64,000 nucleotides of DNA, taken from Planotetraspora sp. A-T 1434 (GTDB lineage Bacteria; Actinomycetota; Actinomycetes; Streptosporangiales; Streptosporangiaceae). Position numbers and translations under genes: made by a program. The stretch is taken from assembly GCF_025420585.1 (NCBI RefSeq), contig NZ_JAOEGB010000004.1:248001-312000 (forward strand), given 5' to 3'. Every line of letters starts with the position of its first letter. Position 1 is the first letter of the stretch. The notes beneath the pieces were generated by a model. That model had not been told where the DNA came from. It ran no database searches and saw only the letters and a list, made by a program, of their open reading frames with translations. Positions 620 to 61,675 of this stretch are shown here, piece after piece.

Positions 620-883
620 TCATGTTGTGATCATGCACGGATTCCCGTTTCCGCCCCCTAACCAAGCCCATCCTCCATGCGTGATCATGCGCGGACTCCC
701 CGCTATCCCGCGAAAGCGGAACGGCCACCGCGCGGAGCTGCCACCATGCGGATTGCGACCTTGTCTTCGCATGATCACGCGAGCGAATGGCCCTGGCGGT
801 GCGGGACGCCGGGGAATCCGTGCATGATCACGCATGGAGGATGGGCCGGTCGCGGGCCGCGAGCGGGAATGTGTGCATGATCA
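617..883. repeat. Array A of the TGATCATGC element family
   Basis: Forward cores (TGATCATGC plus a TTCCC-like tail) start at 628 and 682, with a partial TGATCATG at 617 that includes the protease stop codon. Reverse cores (GCATGATCA) end at 777, 830 and 883. Spacing is 54, 53 and 53 bp. Segments 666-690 and 822-846 are a perfect 25-bp inverted repeat that includes one core each. No convincing gene lies in this stretch. The last reverse copy ends 18 bp before the pimB start codon. Confidence 0.9.
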
Positions 884-901
884 CGGGGAAGGGGTGCGGG
901 G

Positions 902-15336: not shown

Positions 15337-15362
15337 CCCCCCCGGGGCCCCCGCCCCCGCCG

Positions 15363-15727
15363 TGATCATGCAGGGTTTCCCGGGAAGCTCCAGGACGTCC
15401 CCCTTCCCGAGTCGTGATCATGCAGGGTTTCCCGGGACGCTCGTAGGCGTCCCGTTCTCCGAAGTGCGATCATGCACGGATTCCGCCGCGCCCTATCTGA
15501 TCAGCGTCGCTACAGTGCGTGATCATGCAGGTGTCCGTCCGGCGGGGCCCCCTTACAGTGCATGATCACGTCACGCATAGCGCCCGGTAGGAGGGGTTAT
15601 GCGGGAAAGCACGCATGATCAGGCCGCGTATAGCGCCTGGTAGCAGGGGTTATGCGGGAAAGTATGCATGATCACGGCGGGTGAGGCGCCAGGTGGGACG
15701 GGTTACGCGGGAACATGTGCATGATCA
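15363..15727. repeat. Array B of the TGATCATGC family: four forward then four reverse copies
   Basis: Forward cores start at 15363, 15415, 15467 (CGATCATGC variant) and 15520. Reverse cores end at 15568, 15621, 15674 and 15727. Spacing is 52, 52, 53, then 53, 53, 53. The reverse half keeps similarity across the full 53-bp unit (GGTAG, GGGGTTATGCGGGAA and core). The array fills the convergent gap between the GntR and acyl-CoA ligase genes and holds no gene. The last reverse copy supplies the ligase stop codon. Confidence 0.93.
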
Positions 15728-17521
15728 CGCGGGGCGGGGGGTGTACAGCTCGTCGATCTGCTTGGCGAAGTCGCGCATCACGAGGTTGCGCTTGACCTTG
15801 AGCGACGGCGTGAGATGGCCGGTCTCTTCGGTCAGGTCGGTCTCCAGGATCACGAACTTCTTGATCTGCTCGGCGTGGGAGACCATCCGGTTGGCGACGT
15901 CGACGGCGCTCTGCACCTCGGCGACGATCGCCGGGTCGGTCGTGGAGACCTCCGGCCTGCCGTTGGCCTCCTTCCACTGCTCCAGCGCCTCGGGGTCGAG
16001 CGTGATGAGCGCCCCGATGAACGGCCGGTCGTCGCCGACCACCATGACCTGGCTGATCAGGCGGTGCGCGCGGATGGCGTCCTCCAGCGGCGCCGGCGCG
16101 ACGTTCTTGCCGCCCGCCGTGACGAGGATCTCCTTCTTGCGGCCGGTGATGCGGAGGTAGCCGTCGTCGTCGAGCGTGCCGACGTCGCCCGTGTGGAACC
16201 AGCCCTCGGGGTCGATGGTCTCCTTGGTGGCGCGCTCGTTGTTCCAGTAGCCGTCGAAGATGTGACGGCCCCTGACGAGGATCTCGCCGTCCTCGGCGAT
16301 CCGGATGCCGACCCCGGGGAACGGCTTGCCGACCGTGCCGATCTTGTTGGCTCCCGGGATGTTGACCGTCGAGGGCGCGCTCGTCTCGGTGAGCCCCCAG
16401 CCCTCGAAGACCTCGATGCCGACGCCGCGGAAGAAGTGGCCGAGCCGCTCGCCCAGGGCCGAGCCTCCCGACACGGCCGCGCTCAGCGCGCCGCCCGTCG
16501 CCGCGCGCAGCTTGCCGTACACGAGCTTGTCGAACAGCGCGTGCTTGAGCCGGACCTTGAGCCCCGCGCCGCCGTCGCTCTCGGCCTTGCTCCACTCGAT
16601 GGCCGCGTCGGCGGCGGCGTGGAAGATCTTGCCCTTGCCGTCGGCGGTCGCCTTCTGCTCGGCGGCGTTGTAGACCTTCTCGAACACGCGCGGCACACCG
16701 AGCAGGAACGTCGGCTTGAACGCCTGCAAATCGGGGGCGACGTTCTTCATGTTCGGGGTGTGCGCCAGGACCGTGCCCGTCTCGATGAGGACGATCTCGA
16801 TGAGCCTGGCGAAACTGTGCGCGAGCGGCAGGAACAGCAGCGCCGCCCGGCCGTCCACGTCGAAGAGCAGTTCGAGCGGGCCGTGGGCGACGTTGCGGGC
16901 GGTGAAGAGCAGGTTGTCGTGCGTGAGCCGGCAGCCCTTGGGCATGCCCGTGGTGCCGGACGTGTAGATGATGGTCGCGAGGTCGCGGCCGCCCCTGGCC
17001 GACCTGCGCTCGGCCAGCGTCTCGTTGCTCACGTCGGCCCCGAGCGCGGCCAGCTCGTCGAGGCCGCCGTCCTCGATGCGCCACACGAGCGAGAGGTCCG
17101 GCATGGCCTCGCGGACCGTCTTCTCGTGCGACTCCAGCTCGGCGAACGCGCCCTTGGCGCCGCTGTCGGACAGGATCCACTTGACCTGGTCGGCGGAGGA
17201 GGTCTCGTAGATCGGCACGCCGACGCCGCCCGCCGCCCAGATCGCGTAGTCGATGACGGTCCACTCGTACCGCGTGCGTGACATCAGCGCCACCCGGTCG
17301 CCGGGCTCGACTCCGGCCGCGATCAGCCCCTTCGCCACGGCCGCGACCTGATCGCGGAACTGGGCGGCGGTGATCGGCTCCCAGGGGGCACCGGGCGCAT
17401 CGCCGCTCTTGCGACGGATCACCACGGCGGCCGGCTCGTCCACACCGCGCTGGAACACCACGTCGGTGCAGTTGGCGGACGGCGGAACGTCCACCAGCAC
17501 GGGAACGCTGAACTCGCGCAC
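15725..17521 (-). CDS. Long-chain fatty-acid-CoA ligase (FadD15-like AMP-binding enzyme)
   Basis: A 598-residue ANL-superfamily ligase that should activate fatty acids to acyl-CoA through an acyl-adenylate. The P-loop motif YTSGTTGMPKG is near residue 190, followed by the GWGLTE block, then WFHTGDVGTLD and the hinge ITGRKKE(I/L). A C-terminal segment LTPSLKVKRN holds the catalytic lysine. GTG 17521 is chosen because AAAGGAG precedes it by 5 nt. A 27-residue basic extension upstream looks non-coding. The length matches mycobacterial FadD15 (about 600). The TGA stop lies inside the last element of array B. Confidence 0.88.
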   Translation of the reverse strand: MREFSVPVLVDVPPSANCTDVVFQRGVDEPAAVVIRRKSGDAPGAPWEPITAAQFRDQVAAVAKGLIAAGVEPGDRVALMSRTRYEWTVIDYAIWAAGGVGVPIYETSSADQVKWILSDSGAKGAFAELESHEKTVREAMPDLSLVWRIEDGGLDELAALGADVSNETLAERRSARGGRDLATIIYTSGTTGMPKGCRLTHDNLLFTARNVAHGPLELLFDVDGRAALLFLPLAHSFARLIEIVLIETGTVLAHTPNMKNVAPDLQAFKPTFLLGVPRVFEKVYNAAEQKATADGKGKIFHAAADAAIEWSKAESDGGAGLKVRLKHALFDKLVYGKLRAATGGALSAAVSGGSALGERLGHFFRGVGIEVFEGWGLTETSAPSTVNIPGANKIGTVGKPFPGVGIRIAEDGEILVRGRHIFDGYWNNERATKETIDPEGWFHTGDVGTLDDDGYLRITGRKKEILVTAGGKNVAPAPLEDAIRAHRLISQVMVVGDDRPFIGALITLDPEALEQWKEANGRPEVSTTDPAIVAEVQSAVDVANRMVSHAEQIKKFVILETDLTEETGHLTPSLKVKRNLVMRDFAKQIDELYTPRPA

Positions 17522-20727: not shown

Positions 20728-21669
20728 ATGGCGCTGACCATCGGCGTGGACGTAGGCGGCACGAAGATCGCTTCCGGAGTCGTGGACGACGACGGACGGG
20801 TCATCGAGCGGGGCCTGCGCCGCACTCCCGCGGAGAACCCCGAGAAGGTGGCCGAGACCATCGCCGACGCGGTGACCGAGCTGGCCGCCCGGCACCAGGT
20901 GGAGGCGGTCGGCGTGGGCGCCGCCGGATTCGTTGACGAGACCAGGTCGATCATCCGGTTCGCGCCCAACCTGGCCTGGCGGGAGGAGCCGCTGCGCAAG
21001 AGGGTCAGCGAGCTCGTCGGTCTGCCCGTGGTGGTGGAGAACGACGCCAACGCCATGGCCTGGGGGGAGTACCGCTTCGGCGCCGGGCGGGGCGAGAGCC
21101 ACGTGGTCTGCGTGACCGTCGGCACCGGCATCGGCGGCGGCATCGTGCTCGGCGGTGAGCTCTACCGGGGCCGGTGGGGCATGGGCGCCGAGCTCGGCCA
21201 CGTGCAGGCGGTGCCCGACGGCCGTCCCTGCGGCTGCGGCAACCGCGGCTGCTGGGAGAAGTACGCCAGCGGGAGCGCGCTGCTCCTTGAGGCCAGGAAC
21301 AACGCCGAGGCCGACCCGTCGTCCGCCCCCCATCTGCTGAGGCTCGCCGGGTCCGTCGACGCGATAAAGGGCGAGCACGTGACTGAGGCGGCCAGGCACG
21401 GCGACGCCGCCGCTCTGGAGGCGTTCGACGCGATCGCCGGCTGGTTGGCCCAGGGCCTCGCCGACCTCGCCGCGATCCTCGACCCCGGCCGCTTCATCCT
21501 CGGCGGAGGCGTCTCCGGGGCCGCCGATCTGTTCGTGGACAAGGTCAGGGAGGGCTACGCCGAACGGCTGACCGGCCGCGGCCACCGTCCCCTCGCGGAG
21601 ATCCGGGTGGCCGAGCTCGGCCCGTCGGCCGGCGTGGTCGGCGCCGCCGACCTGGCCCGCCTCCGCTGA
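20728..21669 (+). CDS. glkA: ROK-family glucokinase
   Basis: A 313-residue glucose kinase making glucose 6-phosphate. The ATP phosphate loop GVDVGGTKIA is at the N-terminus. The sugar site ENDANAMAWGEYRFGAG and the ROK signature ELGHVQAVPDGRPCGCGNRGCWE with its zinc-binding His-Cys3 set are intact. In streptomycetes GlkA also mediates glucose repression, and the same could hold here. It follows the DUF5304-like gene by 57 bp. Its TGA stop opens a 13-bp tandem repeat that runs to the next gene. Confidence 0.94.
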   Translation: MALTIGVDVGGTKIASGVVDDDGRVIERGLRRTPAENPEKVAETIADAVTELAARHQVEAVGVGAAGFVDETRSIIRFAPNLAWREEPLRKRVSELVGLPVVVENDANAMAWGEYRFGAGRGESHVVCVTVGTGIGGGIVLGGELYRGRWGMGAELGHVQAVPDGRPCGCGNRGCWEKYASGSALLLEARNNAEADPSSAPHLLRLAGSVDAIKGEHVTEAARHGDAAALEAFDAIAGWLAQGLADLAAILDPGRFILGGGVSGAADLFVDKVREGYAERLTGRGHRPLAEIRVAELGPSAGVVGAADLARLR

Positions 21670-21783
21670 GGCGGCGGACTGAGGCGGCGGACTGAGGCGA
21701 CGGACTGAGGCGACGGACTGAGGCGACGGACTGAGGCGACGGACTGAGGCGACGGACTGAGGCGACGGACTGAGGCGACGGAC
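21667..21783 (+). repeat. 13-bp tandem repeat, nine units, starting at the glkA stop codon
   Basis: Nine exact-register units of TGAGGCGACGGAC run from the glkA TGA itself. The first two units have GGCGG in place of GCGAC-type bases and the other seven are identical. A tenth TGAGGG begins just before the next start codon. Because 13 is not a multiple of three, the repeated TGA puts stops in all three forward frames. Confidence 0.95.
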
Positions 21784-21793
21784 TGAGGGTCGA

Positions 21794-40125: not shown

Positions 40126-41151
40126 ATGCGTATTGGAGTCCTAACGGGGGGCGGCGACTGCCCCGGGCTGAACGCCGTGATCCGCGCCGTCGTGCGCAAG
40201 GGCATCGGTGTTTACGGGCACGAGTTCGTCGGTTTCCGAGACGGCTGGCGCGGCCCCCTGGAGGGCGACACCATGCCGCTGGACATCCAGGCCGTCCGGG
40301 GAATCCTGCCGCGTGGCGGCACCGTTCTCGGCTCCTCCCGCACCAACCCCATCAAGATCGAGGGTGGTGTCGAGCGGATCAAGGAGAACCTGGCCGCGAC
40401 CGGAGTCGACGCGCTCATCGCCATCGGTGGCGAGGACACCCTGGGCGTCGCCAAGCAGCTCTACGACCGCGACGTCAAGGTCGTCGGCGTGCCGAAGACG
40501 ATCGACAACGACCTCAACGCCACCGACTACACCTTCGGCTTCGACACCGCGGTCAACATCGCGATGGAGGCCATCGACCGCCTCCACACGACCGCCGAGT
40601 CCCACCACCGCGCGCTGATCTGCGAGGTCATGGGCCGCCACGCGGGCTGGATCGCGCTGCACGCCGGCATGGCCGCCGGGGCCAACGTCATCCTCATCCC
40701 GGAGAAGCCGTTCGACATCGACCGCGTCTGCTCCTACGTCGAGTCGCGGTTCAAGACCCGCTACGCGCCCATCATCGTGGTCGCCGAGGGCGCCCACCCG
40801 ATCGAGGGTCAGATGGCCCTCCAGGCCGGCGAGCTCGACGCCTTCGGTCACGTGCGCCTCGGCGGCATCGGCGAGATGCTCGCCCAGGAGATCGAGAAGC
40901 GCACCGGCAAGGAGGCCCGCACCACGGTCCTCGGCCACATCCAGCGCGGCGGCACGCCGACGGCCTACGACCGTGTGCTCGCCACCCGGTTCGGCCTCGG
41001 CGCGATCGACGCCGTCCACGAGGGCGACTACGGCAAAATGGTCGGCCTCAAGGGCACCGACATCGTCCGCGTGAGCCTGAACGAGGCGACCGCCGAGCTG
41101 AAGACCGTCCCCGTCTCCCGTTACGAGGAGGCCGAGGTCTTCTTCGGCTAG
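40126..41151 (+). CDS. pfkA: 6-phosphofructokinase, pyrophosphate-type residues
   Basis: A 341-residue group III phosphofructokinase that phosphorylates fructose 6-phosphate. GVLTGGGDCPGLNAVIR opens the protein, and PKTIDND, EVMGRHAGWIA and GHIQRGGTPTAYDR are intact. The phosphoryl-donor site reads GGEDT with Asp104, and residue 124 is Lys. ATP-dependent relatives such as mycobacterial PfkA have Gly104, whereas PPi-dependent enzymes such as that of Amycolatopsis methanolica have Asp104 with Lys124. A PPi-dependent enzyme is therefore predicted. ATG 40126 follows GGAGGA by 8 nt. The C-terminal AEVFFG codons and stop are the first unit of a 24-bp tandem repeat. Confidence 0.93.
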   Translation: MRIGVLTGGGDCPGLNAVIRAVVRKGIGVYGHEFVGFRDGWRGPLEGDTMPLDIQAVRGILPRGGTVLGSSRTNPIKIEGGVERIKENLAATGVDALIAIGGEDTLGVAKQLYDRDVKVVGVPKTIDNDLNATDYTFGFDTAVNIAMEAIDRLHTTAESHHRALICEVMGRHAGWIALHAGMAAGANVILIPEKPFDIDRVCSYVESRFKTRYAPIIVVAEGAHPIEGQMALQAGELDAFGHVRLGGIGEMLAQEIEKRTGKEARTTVLGHIQRGGTPTAYDRVLATRFGLGAIDAVHEGDYGKMVGLKGTDIVRVSLNEATAELKTVPVSRYEEAEVFFG

Positions 41152-41226
41152 AACGCCGAGGTCTTCTTCGGCTGGAACGCCGAGGTCTTCTTCGGCTGGA
41201 ACGCCGAGGTCTTCTTCGGCTGGAAC
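41131..41226 (+). repeat. 24-bp tandem repeat made from the pfkA C-terminus
   Basis: Four units of 24 bp. The first encodes AEVFFG and the TAG stop of pfkA. In the other three the stop is TGG (Trp) and the units are otherwise identical. The unit is a multiple of three, so readthrough of the TAG would add three copies of AEVFFGWN. Confidence 0.95.
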
Positions 41227-45514: not shown

Positions 45515-45678
45515 TGATCAGGCATGAGGTCGTCGCTGGTGGCGAGCCCTAGCGGGGAAGGTGTGCATGATCACGACTCGCGGAGTCGCTGGTGGCGGGG
45601 CCCCGCGGGAACCCGTGCATGATCACGGCGAGGTGGGGTGCAGGCCGCGGCGGATGCCCGGGAACCTGTGCATGATCA
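45515..45678. repeat. Array C of the TGATCATGC family
   Basis: Reverse cores lie at 45565-45573, 45617-45625 and 45670-45678, spaced 52 and 53 bp, each preceded by GGGAA. A degenerate forward core (TGATCAGGC) starts at 45515. In the sense of the leftward DAHP synthase gene the first element begins 10 nt after its stop codon. Confidence 0.88.
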
Positions 45679-45688
45679 CGGCGGGGGG

Positions 45689-48835: not shown

Positions 48836-49609
48836 ATGCTGCGCGTTCTTGCGGTCGACGACGAGGTCCCCGCGCTGTCCGAGCTGGCCTATCTCCTCCG
48901 GCAGGACGCCCGGGTGGAACACGTGGCCACGGCGTCGGACGGCGGGGCGGCGCTCCAGGACATGGTCCAGATGATCGTGGCGGGCGAGCGCCTCGACGGG
49001 GTGTTCCTCGACATCCGGATGCCGGGACTGGACGGACTGGATCTCGCCCGGCTGATCGGAGGCTTCCCCACGCCGCCCCGGCTCGTCTTCGTCAGTGCCC
49101 ACGACTGCGCCGTCCAGGCCTTCGAGCTGGAGGCCGTCGACTACCTCCTCAAGCCCGTACGCCCCGAACGGCTCGCGGAGGCCGTACGGAGGCTCTGGGC
49201 GGCCGTGGCGCCCCCTTCGGGGGAGGAGGCCACGGATGTCATCCCGGTCGAGCTCGGCGGCCGCACGCGCTTTCTGGCGCAGCAGGACGTGCGGTACGCC
49301 GAGGCCCACGGCGACTACGTCCGCCTGCACACGGCCGACCAGGCATACCTCGTGCGGATGTCCCTTGCGGCGCTGGAACGCCGCTGGGGAGGCTCCGGGT
49401 TCATCAGGGCCCATCGCAGCACGCTCGTGAACGCGCGGCACGTCAGTGAACTGCGTTTCGACGCGGGGAGGGTGGTGCTCCAGGTGGGGTCGGAGACTCT
49501 TCCGGTGAGCCGGCGGCACACGAGGCAGGTGCGGGAGCAACTCGTCCGCCAGTTCCGCACGGCGCCCCACTCCGGCGAACCCCTCCCCATTGGTGGTGAT
49601 CATGCATAG
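48836..49609 (+). CDS. LytTR-family response regulator with a repeat-derived C-terminus
   Basis: A 257-residue regulator. The receiver domain has phosphoacceptor Asp59 in VFLDIRMPGLDG and Lys in YLLKPVRP. The LytTR DNA-binding domain covers about 150-245 (IRAHRSTLVNARHVSELRF and PVSRRHTRQV). ATG 48836 is chosen as the start of LRVLAVDDE. An in-frame GTG at 48827 is possible. Its last codons (GGDHA then TAG) are written by the first element of repeat array D. It pairs with the LytS-type kinase 88 bp upstream. Confidence 0.9.
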   Translation: MLRVLAVDDEVPALSELAYLLRQDARVEHVATASDGGAALQDMVQMIVAGERLDGVFLDIRMPGLDGLDLARLIGGFPTPPRLVFVSAHDCAVQAFELEAVDYLLKPVRPERLAEAVRRLWAAVAPPSGEEATDVIPVELGGRTRFLAQQDVRYAEAHGDYVRLHTADQAYLVRMSLAALERRWGGSGFIRAHRSTLVNARHVSELRFDAGRVVLQVGSETLPVSRRHTRQVREQLVRQFRTAPHSGEPLPIGGDHA

Positions 49610-49869
49610 ATTCCCACGACACCGATCGTGATCATGCACGGCTTCCCGCGTGGCCGTTGTCAACTGGCACGACATCGATCGTGATCATGCGTGGCTTCCC
49701 GTGGAATGGCGCTGAGCCGCCCTGGCCGTACTCGTGATCATTTAATCGGCAGATGCATGATCGGGTATGGCGAATGTGCGGGTGGGCACGTGCGACGGGG
49801 ACTTTGTGCATGATCACGCGCAGTGGACGGGCAGCTGGCGACGGGGGCGCGGGAACCTGTGCATGATCA
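49597..49869. repeat. Array D of the TGATCATGC family: four forward, three reverse copies
   Basis: Forward cores start at 49597, 49629, 49682 and 49735. Reverse cores lie at 49755-49763, 49808-49816 and 49861-49869. Spacings are 32, 53, 53 and, in the reverse half, 53 and 53. A degenerate reverse core is at 49992-50000. The first copy supplies the last residues of the LytTR regulator. The last forward copy (TGATCATTTAA) has lost its tail. Confidence 0.92.
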
Positions 49870-50015
49870 CGAGGAGGTTGGGGGGCTCGCACCCCCTACG
49901 ACCGCTCGTCGTCCGGGAGGCTCCGCTCATCGCGGTACGGCGGGCCGCATGGCGCGAACTAGGGACCGCTCATCCGAAGGTCCATCCGCCCGCATGATTA
50001 CCCCTCGTAGTGTTT

Positions 50016-53947: not shown

Positions 53948-54456
53948 GGGTGCACATCGACGTCAACGGCGAACGGCTGGCCGCGGACGACGTCTGGGAG
54001 GGGGAGAGCCTGCTCTATGTCCTCCGGGAGCGGCTGGGCCTGCCGGGCGCGAAGAACGCCTGCGAGCAGGGCGAGTGCGGCTCCTGCACGGTCTACCTGG
54101 ACGGGCTCCCGGTCTGCGCCTGCCTCGTCGCCGCGGGCCAGGCCGAGGGCCGTGAGGTCGTCACCGTGGAGGGGCTGGCCTCGGGTGACGACCTCGATCA
54201 GGGTCTGGACGAGGTGCAGCGGGCGTTCGTGGAGGCGGGAGCCGTACAGTGCGGGTTCTGCACACCCGGCCTCATCGTCCAGGCGCACTCGCTGATCGAG
54301 AGCACGCCGCAGGTCCCGGAGGACGCCGACATCCGGGAGGCGCTGGCCGGCAACCTCTGCCGGTGCACCGGCTACGAGAAGATCATCGACGCCGTCCGCC
54401 TCGCCGCCACCCGCAAGGCTCAGAACAAGGCCGCCCAGAAGAAGGCGCCCCGGTGA
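53944..54456 (+). CDS. Xanthine-dehydrogenase-type 2Fe-2S subunit
   Basis: A 170-residue protein with two [2Fe-2S] domains. The first has the ferredoxin cysteines in CEQGECGSC plus one in VCACLV. The second has CGFCTPG and LAGNLCRCTGY. It carries electrons from the molybdenum site to the FAD subunit. The C-terminus is rich in Lys. The large molybdopterin subunit that should accompany it is not encoded next to it or elsewhere in the window. Repeat array E follows directly. Confidence 0.93.
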   Translation: MRVHIDVNGERLAADDVWEGESLLYVLRERLGLPGAKNACEQGECGSCTVYLDGLPVCACLVAAGQAEGREVVTVEGLASGDDLDQGLDEVQRAFVEAGAVQCGFCTPGLIVQAHSLIESTPQVPEDADIREALAGNLCRCTGYEKIIDAVRLAATRKAQNKAAQKKAPR

Positions 54457-54469
54457 CCCCCCTCCGGCG

Positions 54470-54584
54470 TGATCATGCACAGGTTCCCGGAGCTCCCCCG
54501 CGACCTGCCCCTTCCTCCGCCGTGATCATGCGCGACTTCCCGCCCGCCCGGCCTGACCTGCGAGCTCTCTGTGCGTGATCATGC
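54470..54584. repeat. Array E of the TGATCATGC family, last copy inside the next gene
   Basis: Forward cores start at 54470, 54523 and 54576, spaced 53 and 53 bp. The third lies in the first codons of the amidohydrolase gene (GTG CGT GAT CAT GCA), so the N-terminus reads MRDHA. Confidence 0.92.
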
Positions 54585-55963: not shown

Positions 55964-57136
55964 GTGAAAGGACATGTCGTAATCGCACCGGACAAGTTCA
56001 GGGGGTCGCTGACCTCACCACAGGTTGCCGCGCACGTCGCAGCCGGGCTGCTGCTGGCCGGTAGGGGGGCGGTGCCGTCCGTCCCGCTGCCGGTGGCCGA
56101 CGGCGGCGACGGCACCCTCGACGCCGTGGTGGCCTGCGGATTCACCCGGGTGGAGGTCGAGGCGACCGGCCCCACCGGCGAGCCCCTCCTCGCCTCCTAC
56201 GCCGTCAGGGACACGGTCGCCGTGATCGAGCTGGCGGAGGCGTCCGGCCTCCGGCGGCTCCCCGGAGATCCCGCGCCGCTGACCGCCACGAGCTACGGGA
56301 CGGGCGAGCTCGTCCTGCATGCCGTACGGCACGGCGCCACGCGGATCGTGCTGGGCCTCGGGGGCAGCGCCTGCACCGACGGGGGAGCCGGCATGGCCCA
56401 GGCCCTCGGCGCGCGGTTGCTGGACGAGAACGGTGACGACCTGCCCTTCGGAGGGGCCGCCCTGCGGAGCCTGCACCGGATCGACGCCTCCGCGCTCGCG
56501 GAGCTCTCCGGCATCGAGTTCGTCGTCGCGAGTGACGTGGACAACCCGCTGCTCGGCCCGCACGGGGCGGCGGCCGTGTACGGCCCGCAGAAGGGCGCCA
56601 CACCCGGCGACGTGGCCGTGCTGGAGGCGGGCCTGGCCCGGCTGGCCGCGGTCGCCGCCCACACGCACGGCCTCGCCGGGGCGGTCGAGCACGACGGCAC
56701 CGTGCGGAGCATGGGCGTGGCGGCCCACCCGGGCGCCGGAGCCGCCGGGGGAGTGGGCTTCGCCGCGCTGGCCTTCCTGCACGCCGAGATCCGGGCCGGC
56801 ATCGAGTATCTGCTCGAACTGGTGGACTTCGACCGCCACGTCGAGGGAGCGGCCCTGGTGATCACGGGCGAGGGCTCGCTCGACGAGCAGTCGCTGCGCG
56901 GCAAGGCCCCGGTCGGCGTCGCGTCCGCGGCGGCCAAGCACGGGGTGCCGGTAGTCGCGGTCTGCGGCCGGCGGACGATCGGCGACGAGGAGCTCCGGGC
57001 GGCCGGGATCGAGGCGGCCTATGCCCTGACGGAGATCGAGCCCGACGTCGAGCGCTGCATGACCGAGGCCGGGCCGCTCGTCGAGCGCCTCGCCCGCACG
57101 ATCGCCGAGACCCACCTCCAGGGCAGCCCGTCGTGA
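55964..57136 (+). CDS. glxK: Glycerate kinase
   Basis: A 390-residue glycerate kinase of the GarK/GlxK type. HVVIAPDKFRGSLTS opens the protein, PVADGGDGTLDAV and VLGLGGSACTDGGAGMAQALG are the substrate and ATP blocks. It phosphorylates glycerate made from glyoxylate through tartronate semialdehyde, the fate of carbon from allantoin. GTG 55964 follows the amidohydrolase stop by 4 bp with GAAGGTGAG upstream. Its TGA lies inside the first element of array F. Confidence 0.92.
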   Translation: MKGHVVIAPDKFRGSLTSPQVAAHVAAGLLLAGRGAVPSVPLPVADGGDGTLDAVVACGFTRVEVEATGPTGEPLLASYAVRDTVAVIELAEASGLRRLPGDPAPLTATSYGTGELVLHAVRHGATRIVLGLGGSACTDGGAGMAQALGARLLDENGDDLPFGGAALRSLHRIDASALAELSGIEFVVASDVDNPLLGPHGAAAVYGPQKGATPGDVAVLEAGLARLAAVAAHTHGLAGAVEHDGTVRSMGVAAHPGAGAAGGVGFAALAFLHAEIRAGIEYLLELVDFDRHVEGAALVITGEGSLDEQSLRGKAPVGVASAAAKHGVPVVAVCGRRTIGDEELRAAGIEAAYALTEIEPDVERCMTEAGPLVERLARTIAETHLQGSPS

Positions 57137-57271
57137 TCATGCACACCTTCCCGCTCACCCCATTCCACCTGCAAGGCAGCTCGTCGTGATCATGCGCACT
57201 TTCCCGTTCATCCCGTCCCACCCGCGGAGCAGCCATGCGTGATCATGCGCCACAGCCGTACGACCTGGTCG
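57113..57271. repeat. Array F: 53-bp units bridging the glxK stop and the allB start
   Basis: Three units of 53 bp start at 57113, 57166 and 57219. Cores start at 57134, 57187 and 57240. Units 1 and 2 agree at 44 of 53 positions and eight of the nine differences are transitions. Unit 1 encodes the last seven glxK residues and its stop. Unit 3 includes the ATG of the allantoinase gene (ATG CGT GAT CAT GCG), giving MRDHA again. Confidence 0.93.
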
Positions 57272-58557
57272 TCCGGTCGCGCCGCGCGGTGACGCCCGGC
57301 GGCGAGCGACCGCTCGCGGTGGCCGTGCGGGATGGGAGGATCGCCGACCTCGGGCCCTACGACGAGCCGCCCCCGGCGCGGGAGACCGTGGATCTCGGCG
57401 ACCTCGCGCTCCTGCCGGGCCTGGTGGACACCCACGTCCACGTCAACGAGCCGGGGCGGACGCACTGGGAGGGCTTCGCGTCGGCCACCAGGGCGGCGGC
57501 CGCCGGAGGGGTGACGTCGATCGTCGACATGCCCCTCAACTCCCTGCCGCCCACGGTGAGCGTGCCGGCCCTGGAGATCAAGCGGAAGGCCGCCGAGGGC
57601 CAGTGCCACGTCGACGTCGGCTTCTGGGGCGGCGCCATTCCGGGCAACCTGGCGGACCTCGGGCCGCTGCACGAGGCCGGGGTCTTCGGCGTCAAGTGCT
57701 TCCTGTCCCCGTCGGGCGTTGACGAGTTCCCCGCGCTCGACCCCGCCGGACTACACGACGCCCTGGCCGAGGTGGCGTCGTTCGGCGGGCTGCTCATCGC
57801 GCACGCGGAGGACCCCGGCTCCCTCACCGAACCGCTCGGCCCGACATATCCGGAATTCTTGCGATCTCGCACGCAGGACGCCGAGCGCAGGGCCGTCGAG
57901 CAGGTCATCGAGCTGGCCGCCCGGACCGGTGCCCGCGCCCATATCGTGCACGTCTCGGCCGCCGCCTGCGTCGAGCCGCTGCGCAGGGCACAGCGCGACG
58001 GCGTCCGGATCAGCGCCGAGACCTGCCCCCACTACCTCACGCTGGCCGCCGAGGAGGTCAGCGGGCCCGCGTACAAGTGCTGCCCCCCGATCAGAGAGGC
58101 CGCCAACCGCGACGCCCTCTGGCAGGCGCTGGCGGATGGCGTGCTCATGGGCGTCGTCTCGGACCACTCGCCCTCGACGCCCGACCTGAAGGTGCCCGAC
58201 TTCGCCCGGGCCTGGGGCGGCATCTCCTCGCTCCAGCTCGGCCTGCCGGTCATGTGGACCGCCGCCCTCTCCCGGGGGTACGGCCTGGCCGACGTGGTCC
58301 ACTGGATGGCCGAGGGCCCCGCCGGGCTGGTCGGCCTGCCGTACAAGGGGGCGATCAGGGTGGGGGCGGACGCCGACCTCGTGGCCTTCGACCCGGCCGC
58401 CGAGTTCACCGTGGACGTGGCCAAGCTGCGCCACAGGAACCCCGTCTCCCCCTACCACGGCAGGACGCTCACCGGCGTCGTGCGGACGACGTGGCTGCGC
58501 GGCACCCCGATCGACTTCACCACGCCGCGAGGGCGGTTCCTCAGCTCACAGGACTGA
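57235..58557 (+). CDS. allB: Allantoinase
   Basis: A 440-residue cyclic amidohydrolase that opens allantoin to allantoate. [17 protein letters not shown] holds the first two metal His residues, [10 protein letters not shown] the carbamylated Lys, and [18 protein letters not shown] and VVSDHSPS the remaining ligands. EPGR with the later CFL and DHSPS is the allantoinase pattern rather than dihydroorotase or dihydropyrimidinase. The first five residues (MRDHA) derive from array F. The family proper begins at [11 protein letters not shown]. Confidence 0.92.
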
Positions 58558-59543: not shown

Positions 59544-59563
59544 GCCGGACCGCATGAGGCGAG

Positions 59564-59668
59564 CATGATCCCGCGAGGCGGAGCCGCAGGTTGCGACCGC
59601 CTCGCGGGAATCGGTGCATGATCACGTCAACTGGAGGGGCCGGCCGGCCGGGAACCTGTGCATGATCA
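59564..59668. repeat. Array G of the TGATCATGC family
   Basis: Reverse cores lie at 59564-59572 (GCATGATCC variant), 59617-59625 and 59660-59668. Spacings are 53 and 43. In the sense of the leftward kinase gene the first element begins 15 nt after the stop codon. The array lies in the convergent gap after allantoicase. Confidence 0.9.
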
Positions 59669-59683
59669 CGTCAAAGGGGTGGG

Positions 59684-61675
59684 TCAGTGCCAGATGGTGA
59701 TTTTGGTTCCCATCGGCTGCTGGCCGAGCGGCTTCTCGCCGATGACGCGGCCGGTGCCGACGAGGTCACGGATCTTGACCTTGAACCCGGCCGCCCGCAG
59801 CTCCGCGCTGGCGTCGCGCAGATCCTTGAAGCGGACGTCCGGCACGTTGACGAAGTCAGGCGTGGCCACCGAGTCGTCGTTCTCCCACGGCCAGTGCCAG
59901 CCGTCGTCCGGGCCCTTGGAGATGGTCAGGTGGACGACCGCCCCGGCCACGACCTCCGAGCCGCCGGACGGGTCCTGCGCGATCACCGTGCCGGGCGGGG
60001 TGTCGTCGGCCGTCTCGTAGATCTGGACGTTGAAGCCCTTGTCCCGGAGGAACTGCTCGGCCTGGTCGCGCATCATCTGCGTGACGTCCGGCATGAGCAG
60101 GCCCGCGCTCAGCACCAGGTTGATGCTGGAGTTCTTCCTGACCCGTTTGCCGACCACCGGGACCGTGCGGACGACCAGGCCGCGCGCCACGGCGTCGCTC
60201 GCCGTCTTGCTGACCCGCCCGACGCTGAGACCCGCCTCGGCGATCTTCGTCCGGGCGTCGGCCTCGCTGAGGCCCTCGACCTTCGGCACCGGGATCGTCT
60301 CTGGCCCGGCCGACGGGATCAGCGTGAGCAGCGACCCCTTGGCGACCTCCGCGCCGGGTCCCGGCTCGGTATCGAGGACCCTGTCCTTGTCGAGGTGGTC
60401 GTCGAACCGGGCCTTGCCGATCCTGACCTCGAAGCCCGCCTTCTCCGCCTGCTGCCTGGCCACCGTGATGTTCTGGCCGAGCAGCATGTCGGGCACCTTC
60501 GTGTAGCGGCCCTGGGAGAACCACCAGCCGGTGAACGCGATCCCGGCGACCATCACGAGGGCCAGGCCGACGATGAACCAGTTGGGCCGCCACCCGCGCA
60601 CCCGCCCCAGCGGGCCGTTCGCGGCGGGCGTGGCCGGCAGCTCGGACTTCGGCTGGATCATCGTGTGGTTGATCGGCCCCTGCGCGTGCTGGCCGGGCAT
60701 CCCGTGCCCGGCCGACATGTACTGACCCGTGCCATACGGCGGGGCCGTGCCGGCCGCGGCGGCCGTCGGCGGGCGGGTGGCGTACGAACCGGTGTGAGAG
60801 GTGTGCGGACCGGTGGGCTGGCCGGTCCGGGGGAGCGAGCGGTGCGTCTCGACGGCGGCGACCAGCATGGCGGTCGCGTCGGCCGGGCGCTTCGCGGGGT
60901 CCCGGTCCGTGGCCGCGGCGACCAGCGCGTCCAGCGCGGGCGGCGTCTCGGGGGCGATCGACGAAGGGGCCGGGACGCTGTCGTGCACGTGCCGGTAGGC
61001 GACCGACATCGGCGTCTCGCCGTCGTACGGCTGCCGCCCGGTGAGCAGCTCGAACAGCATGATCCCGGCGGCGTAGACGTCGCTGCGGGCGTCCGCCTGG
61101 CCGGAGGTCACCTGCTCGGGCGACATGTAGCCGATCGTGCCGATCATGATGCCGGTCTTGGTCTGGTTGGTGGCCTCGACCGCGCGGGCCAGGCCGAAGT
61201 CGACGACCTTCACCCGGCCGTCGTCGGCGAGCAGCACGTTCTCCGGCTTGACGTCCCGGTGGACCAGGCCCGCCTGGTGGGCCGCGCCGAGGGCGGCGAG
61301 CACCGGGATCATGATCTCCAGGGCCTCGCGCGCGGGAAGCCGACCCCGCAGGCGGAGGACGTCGCGCAGCGTCTTGCCCGGGACGTACTCCATCGAGAGG
61401 TAGACGTGGGCCCCGTCGGTGCCCTGGTCGAAGACCTGCACGATGTTGGGGTGCGACAGGCTGGCGACCGACTTGGCCTCGCCTATGAACCGCCGCACGA
61501 ACTGGGGGTCTTCGGCGAGCGAGCGGTGCATCACCTTGACGGCGACCGTGCGGTCGAGCCGGACGTCCAGAGCCAGATAGACGGAGGCCATGCCGCCCCG
61601 GGCGATCCGGGACTCGACGCGGTAACGCCCGTCGAGCAGTTGCCCTACGAGCGGGTCGGTAAGCGTCGTGTCCAC
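59684..61675 (-). CDS. PASTA-domain serine/threonine protein kinase
   Basis: A 663-residue PknB-type transmembrane kinase. The kinase domain covers about 17-280 (IARGGMASVYLA, AVKVM, HRDVKPENVLL, DFGLA, and GTIGYMSPEQ). A Pro/Thr/Gly-rich juxtamembrane stretch of about 90 residues is followed by one helix (WFIVGLALVMVAGIAFTGWWF, about 372-392) and four extracellular PASTA repeats that bind peptidoglycan fragments. The ending is short and lacks a Pro tail. It is not in the usual fts/pbp cluster here, so it is a paralogue of the division-linked PknB. It stands next to the thiazole genes by chance as far as I can see. Confidence 0.92.
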   Translation of the reverse strand: MDTTLTDPLVGQLLDGRYRVESRIARGGMASVYLALDVRLDRTVAVKVMHRSLAEDPQFVRRFIGEAKSVASLSHPNIVQVFDQGTDGAHVYLSMEYVPGKTLRDVLRLRGRLPAREALEIMIPVLAALGAAHQAGLVHRDVKPENVLLADDGRVKVVDFGLARAVEATNQTKTGIMIGTIGYMSPEQVTSGQADARSDVYAAGIMLFELLTGRQPYDGETPMSVAYRHVHDSVPAPSSIAPETPPALDALVAAATDRDPAKRPADATAMLVAAVETHRSLPRTGQPTGPHTSHTGSYATRPPTAAAAGTAPPYGTGQYMSAGHGMPGQHAQGPINHTMIQPKSELPATPAANGPLGRVRGWRPNWFIVGLALVMVAGIAFTGWWFSQGRYTKVPDMLLGQNITVARQQAEKAGFEVRIGKARFDDHLDKDRVLDTEPGPGAEVAKGSLLTLIPSAGPETIPVPKVEGLSEADARTKIAEAGLSVGRVSKTASDAVARGLVVRTVPVVGKRVRKNSSINLVLSAGLLMPDVTQMMRDQAEQFLRDKGFNVQIYETADDTPPGTVIAQDPSGGSEVVAGAVVHLTISKGPDDGWHWPWENDDSVATPDFVNVPDVRFKDLRDASAELRAAGFKVKIRDLVGTGRVIGEKPLGQQPMGTKITIWH

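Follow-up and report, generated by a model that had tools for sequence, protein, structure and literature searches.

Three tandem units join glxK and allB

In the window, by which we mean the whole stretch of 64,000 nucleotides analysed here, three tandem 53-bp units (57113-57165, 57166-57218, and 57219-57271; window positions, plus strand) span the junction between two genes of purine breakdown that we call glxK and allB after the original prediction (Table 1). The array was detected by both TRF and a repeat finder, with the TRF call extending over 57111-57248 (score 171). As originally described, unit 1 includes the last seven codons and the stop of glxK (57113-57136; C-terminus ...HLQGSPS*), and unit 3 contains the ATG at 57235, so that it supplies the start of allB. 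The stop codon itself (TGA, 57134-57136) lies inside the core of unit 1, CGTGATCATGC, and core 3 is translated as part of allB after the start Met. The allB start in many related loci apparently lies a few residues before (P/G)YDLVV, as judged by eye in sequences whose starts are unannotated. We take the neighbouring genes to be those of a deaminase and a small subunit. No plasmid relatives of 57000-57400 were found.

Table 1 Genes, repeat units, and core arrays in the window.
Feature	Position	Strand	Evidence
Gene named glxK in the original prediction	55964..57136	+	ORF; name from the original prediction
Gene named allB in the original prediction, start codon from unit 3	57235..58557	+	ORF; name from the original prediction
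Three 53-bp units	57113..57271	+	TRF, repeat finder, unit comparison
Core 1, CGTGATCATGC, its TGA being the glxK stop	57132..57142	+	core search
Core 2	57185..57195	+	core search
Core 3, translated in allB as RDHA	57238..57248	+	core search, ORF
Two-core array, first arm of an inward-facing pair	626..690	+	core search
Three-core array, second arm of the pair with 626..690	769..885	-	core search
First arm of an inward-facing pair with a 31-32 bp centre	15361..15528	+	TRF, core search
Second arm of the pair with 15361..15528	15560..15729	-	TRF, core search
Three-core array	45565..45680	-	core search
Array, first arm	49595..49690	+	core search
Array, second arm of the pair with 49595..49690, first core degenerate	49755..49871	-	core search
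Array E, three cores, between a gene ending at 54456 and a gene starting at 54571	54468..54584	+	core search
Array downstream of a minus-strand gene ending at 59684, with a strong hairpin inside	59563..59670	-	core search, folding

A recount confirmed nine differences between units 1 and 2, of which eight are transitions (83% identity); unit 3 differs from each of them at 22 positions (58% identity). Units from different arrays share a mean identity of 48% (63,654 pairs), and an identity of at least 83% occurs in 0.1% of such pairs and in 7% of 120 adjacent unit pairs. The likeness of units 1 and 2 is therefore far above the background between arrays; that of unit 3 is only modestly above it, since at least 60% identity is found in 9% of the 63,654 pairs. 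Over their left 20 nt, which lie outside the family consensus, units 1 and 2 are still 85% alike, and for this reason a single local duplication that carried the glxK tail along is the likely source of these two units.

The units belong to a dispersed family

Clusters of the core also occur at six other places in the window and throughout the genome, all of which the original prediction had missed. With up to one mismatch, CGTGATCATGC is present 34 times in the window, against 1.7 on average in shuffled sequence. Most copies are clustered at a spacing of 52-53 bp, and TRF arrays with the same core were also called at 15361-15484 and 15559-15733. Two other tandem repeats in the window consist of 24-bp units (41131-41226, 98% matches) and 13-bp units (21666-21788, 99%).

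The source genome (7.78 Mb, 136 contigs) contains 433 pairs of CGTGATCATGC spaced 50-53 bp (207 + 226), while a reversed-pattern control yielded no pairs in the same genome. With position 7 of the core relaxed to A or T and the spacing set to 51-54 bp, 510 pairs were counted. Spacing between same-strand neighbours in contig C1 (762.5 kb) peaks at 53 bp (118) and 52 bp (42), and units are 53 bp, sometimes 52 bp, long. In the averaged unit, GTGATCATGCA occupies positions 1-11, TTCC positions 16-19, and ACCTG positions 35-39, and the consensus reads CGTGATCATGCACAGGTTCCC. We describe the unit as box 1, GTGATC(A/T)TGC, box 2 at 17-19, and box 3 around 34-40 (ACCTG), with freely drifting spacers between them; the core includes the six-base palindrome TGATCA. 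By simple arithmetic, which is not a test, 53 bp equal five helical turns and place boxes 1 and 3 about three turns apart.

The spread of the family was surveyed with GTGATCWTGC pairs spaced 51-54 bp. Such pairs were found in 11 of 150 genomes sampled from the family, the source included, two of which had only one or two. An overlapping sample of 249 genomes from the order gave 15 positives (three with only one or two pairs), all of them in the same family, to which all but 4 of the 249 sampled genomes belong. Among Planotetraspora, we counted 733 pairs in P. thailandica, 655 in P. silvatica, 643 in P. mira, 135 in P. phitsanulokensis, and 574 in genome G143, taken as P. kaengkrachanensis. Counts were also obtained for Sphaerimonospora mesophila (190) and S. 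thailandensis (39), as well as for Microbispora rosea (15) and M. corallina (0). In Sphaerimonospora, the core is GTGATCTTGC, so that the TGATCA palindrome is broken, and CTCGCA follows it in most of the pairs listed. Three IMG/VR viral contigs (L259, L260, and L261) carry a core pair at the family spacing.

Arrays lie between genes and often face inward

Placement was counted in contig C1 on genes predicted with a home-made caller. Intergenic sequence makes up 15% of the bases and holds 244 of the 264 sites. The 238 sites that could be classed fall into codirectional (147), convergent (88), and divergent (3) regions; among regions of at least 30 bp, 40 of 318 codirectional, 24 of 66 convergent, and 1 of 94 divergent ones are occupied. 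Same-strand groups number 122, of which 43 are single sites and 79 contain two to six. Looking 5' from each of 78 arrays, one first meets a stop codon in 55 cases (median distance 25 bp) and a start codon in 23 (median 70 bp).

Within convergent regions, 71 of the 88 sites lie in the half that adjoins the gene on their own strand, and the cores in codirectional regions run along the genes 75 times and opposite to them 72 times. Regions with at least two sites (n = 63) contain an inward-facing pair in 34 cases, a single direction in 27, and outward-facing sites only in 2; exact-core neighbours face inward 31 times versus 2 times outward. Among 698 genes, 12 end on the TGA of a forward core and 3 on that of a reversed core, and two (54571 and 57235) start at xTG followed by the core. 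A core with up to one mismatch lies inside the body of 49 of these genes. Along the chromosome, the spacing of clusters is not significantly regular (four stretches, P 0.06 to 0.41). A half-turn test on the inner gaps gave p of about 0.008 (based on 27 of 49 gaps after manual thinning, P. silvatica being left out), and, of the three periods tried in all, 10.5 gave p = 0.42 and 53 gave p = 0.11; helical phasing of the inner gaps is a weak signal.

The junction in relatives and the turnover of arrays

In 68 of 80 related loci, glxK lies at most 5 kb upstream of allB; this holds for none of the five Planotetraspora loci. The gap to the start of the allB match is at most 60 bp in 29 of the 42 junctions printed (counted by hand). 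Three Microbispora loci (L040, L041, and L047) have reversed units at the junction, and their glxK C-terminus (LVQDH...) is translated from a reversed core. We read these units and those of the source as separate events at the same spot, and the comparison comes close to the independent insertions that the original prediction had set against itself. All five Planotetraspora loci have a unit upstream of the deaminase gene, and glxK is missing there between the deaminase gene and allB.

Arrays differ between species at otherwise conserved places. For 15 P. mira clusters (92 sites with up to one mismatch), the flanks are syntenic in P. phitsanulokensis and G143 in all cases, with 30 sites in the former (none at 3 clusters) and 76 in the latter (none at 1). 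Across the 13 clusters comparable in P. silvatica, hand sums gave 71 sites in P. mira and 72 in P. silvatica. Where P. mira sites align through in P. phitsanulokensis, 10 of 12 cores are exact, which is why the arrays of this species seem to have been shortened and not left to decay, albeit on small numbers. In the part of this genome that was compared (G153; loci L240-L258), arrays are shorter at the same loci, and genome-wide core pairs amount to about a fifth of those of its relatives. Units are also present at the place of array E in all loci compared from Planotetraspora (5 of 5) and Sphaerimonospora (2 of 2). The window has seven array places, and G143 has units at 626, 45565, and E and none at 49595 or 59563; for the other two, 15361 and glxK-allB, it lacks a comparable junction, because the genes next to them are missing there.

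In the source genome, 24 places, 15361-15729 included, show the inward-facing arrangement with a 31-32 bp centre. At the 14 distinct centre places that were compared, most arms resemble one another, consensus drops to the background level some 100-130 bp out in both directions, and the flanks are mostly unrelated. In P. mira (G152), some units of inward-facing arms are near-identical in inverted orientation (C2:206368-206910, C2:273072-273493, and C2:62768-63228), which suggests exchange between the arms in this species.

Boxes are conserved at orthologous sites

Alignments of P. mira and P. silvatica sites included flanks of 400 bp; the sites were chosen by their core in one species only, and boxes 2 and 3 played no role in the choice. 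For the 57 of 79 sites compared, core positions are 96-100% identical, the TTC 95-98%, and box 3 86-93%, while spacer positions mostly range from 71 to 91% (lowest 65%) and flanks beyond 150 bp are 93% identical. For P. mira against G143 (60 of 79 sites), identity is 97% for the core, 85% for box 2, 70% for box 3, and 58% for the spacer; in repetitive sequence, a local alignment may match a unit to the adjacent one, which would lower the spacer values. Identity falls from core through box 2 and box 3 to spacer in 11 of 12 directions among four species. The exception is P. phitsanulokensis to G143, with box 2 at 100% and box 3 (81%) below the spacer (83%); from G143 to P. phitsanulokensis, box 3 and spacer hardly differ. 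Conservation of the boxes above the spacer at orthologous sites is what is expected of an array of protein-binding sites.

The box 2 base differs almost completely between genera. Among 275 cores of the source genome, 196 are followed by TCC, 1 by TCG, and 78 by another triplet, while four stretches of Planotetraspora gave 174 TCG, 3 TCC, and 67 others (244 cores, many from orthologous loci and hence non-independent). The consensus is TTCC in the source genome and TTCG in Planotetraspora. In array E, matched units of the source and G143 have spacers that are 60% and 72% alike and yet differ in this letter; at arrays A and C, units could be matched less well or not at all. From these alignments, the change looks like a substitution in place, and short-tract conversion may be an alternative.

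RNA structure and terminators

No Watson-Crick covariation between unit positions was detected in 91 non-redundant units of the source genome, and no Rfam family matched the window at the gathering threshold. When five arrays of the window were folded, four were ordinary (z -1.44 to 0.13) and the fifth had a z of -2.67. With these results, a structured RNA was rejected as a candidate. The fifth array, on the minus strand at 59563-59626, contains a strong G+C-rich hairpin that ends in ATCATGC, as if a terminator had been fused to a unit. Within the first 120 nt, a best 40-nt hairpin below -20 kcal/mol was present at 7% of 41 array ends versus 40% of 218 others; over whole intergenic regions, the difference in hairpins is not significant. 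The evidence that arrays replace terminators is therefore mixed.

Possible function and alternative explanations

We give about an even chance to the explanation that the glxK-allB array is one member of a dispersed family of conserved intergenic DNA-site arrays that are read by a putative protein and mark the ends of genes. A sequence-specific DNA-binding protein, which we infer together with the boundary function, would load on the phased sites, and the arrays would act at the DNA level as boundaries of transcription units, be it as a roadblock to read-through or insulator, or as a topological anchor. Their turnover would proceed by whole units, with occasional spread in the form of larger modules. 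One such array would have come to lie in the glxK-allB junction, which is short in many relatives, where the TGA of a core could have become the glxK stop and the last unit could have supplied the allB start. A role at transcription-unit boundaries is suggested by the location of the arrays. Recognition as DNA is favoured by the pattern of constraint, the lack of covariation, the equal share of opposite-strand sites in codirectional regions, and the palindrome lost in Sphaerimonospora. The single-site groups, the regions with one direction only, and the genes with an internal core count against a site array, and gene conversion between copies could also have kept the cores alike.

A selfish or neutral interspersed repeat of the MITE, REP, or MIRU kind, which settles near stops without any function and whose cores are alike through youth or gene conversion, seems rather unlikely to us. 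It would account for similar arms in mostly unrelated flanks around the recurrent inward centre and for the units and whole arrays missing in P. phitsanulokensis, and selection against harm alone would yield avoidance of genes and divergent regions. However, spacers at orthologous sites have drifted to 58% while cores remain at 97%, so the copies must be old, and conversion would need to copy the boxes but skip the bases between them. The negative result for the Y1 transposase also speaks against this reading, although CGTC-class REPs are said to do without a dedicated one. An element acting in RNA at mRNA 3' ends, as a terminator, a stabiliser, or a protein site, would fit the stop codons just 5' of most arrays, the inward cores that as inverted repeats could form a hairpin, and the scarcity of near-stop hairpins where arrays are present. 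We regard it as improbable, given that codirectional cores oppose the genes as often as they follow them, that covariation is lacking, and that the one unusual fold is owed to a separate hairpin.

The original prediction had proposed that the 3' end of glxK was duplicated in tandem and that the start of allB was then captured, a scenario that we consider very improbable. The identity of units 1 and 2, their common non-consensus left end, and the start codon supplied by unit 3 speak for it, and duplication is acceptable for the step from one unit to two. As the origin of the unit it is refuted: the genome contains hundreds of copies of the family to which its core belongs, and units occur without an intervening glxK in Planotetraspora and in the opposite orientation in Microbispora.

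Extending the site-array reading, the family might constitute a chromosome-wide boundary system in a clade of Streptosporangiaceae, which we put forward as a possible but somewhat doubtful proposal. A putative protein on phased 53-bp sites, often in inward-facing pairs, would insulate neighbouring transcription units, and hundreds of sites would have followed a shift in its specificity site by site (C versus G in box 2, A versus T in box 1). What the abundant intergenic repeats of bacteria do has been asked for a long time, and recent mobility usually clouds the answer. Here, the copies are old and orthologous, their boxes are conserved, one base differs almost completely between genera, and the arrays of one species are shortened at the same loci, which makes function and co-evolution testable in type strains from culture collections that are not known as pathogens.

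Comparison with known repeat systems

Literature searches, judged by titles and with subscription journals mostly outside their scope, found no published description of the 53-bp family. Its nearest kinds are REP/BIME elements, MIRUs, and other spaced intergenic motifs. According to excerpts of the respective papers, REPs and BIMEs occur in many intergenic copies, mainly between codirectional and convergent genes (PMC3733652), and BIMEs show regular spacing with alternating orientations (PMC2817692). The 53-bp family is likewise intergenic and biased to convergent and codirectional regions, but its units are arranged head to tail and its boxes are conserved at orthologous sites. By eye, the unit consensus contains neither a GTAG nor a CGTC tag, and the palindromic 20-40 bp stem-loop of REPs has no counterpart in the 91 source-genome units, which show no internal pairing. 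The source genome, which is 98% complete, yielded no match to the Y1 tyrosine transposase (PF01797), whereas 5 of 14 controls did; this test bears on GTAG-class REPs only, as the CGTC class is said in the same excerpts to lack a dedicated transposase (PMC3733652). Membership in the REPs was rejected on these three counts.

Paired DNA uptake signals of Haemophilus are short, conserved words, many of which occur as inverted pairs that make up the stem of a terminator (PMC5217627); the excerpted account mentions no 53-bp tandem phasing, and nothing in our family points to uptake. A spaced prokaryotic intergenic motif from the same source, with 44 convergent, 4 divergent, and 59 co-oriented occurrences (PMC5217627), has the same orientation bias, although its words and genomes differ and tandem arrays do not figure in the excerpted description.

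The family shares with the MIRUs tandem units of 40-100 bp, many intergenic loci, and a copy number that varies between species. It differs in having more loci, inward-facing pairs, and conserved boxes, the comparison being by description and not by sequence. MIRUs reportedly use overlaps of stop and start codons in general (Supply 1997). In excerpts on mycobacterial MIRU/VNTR loci, repeat units of 40-100 bp are scattered at 41 places, and the repeat between rnc and fpg1 of M. tuberculosis begins 40 bp downstream of a stop codon and extends to the following start codon, in a place where other species have a gap of only a few bp (PMC2734929). The glxK-allB array shows how a repeat can hand both a stop and a start codon to the genes that adjoin it.
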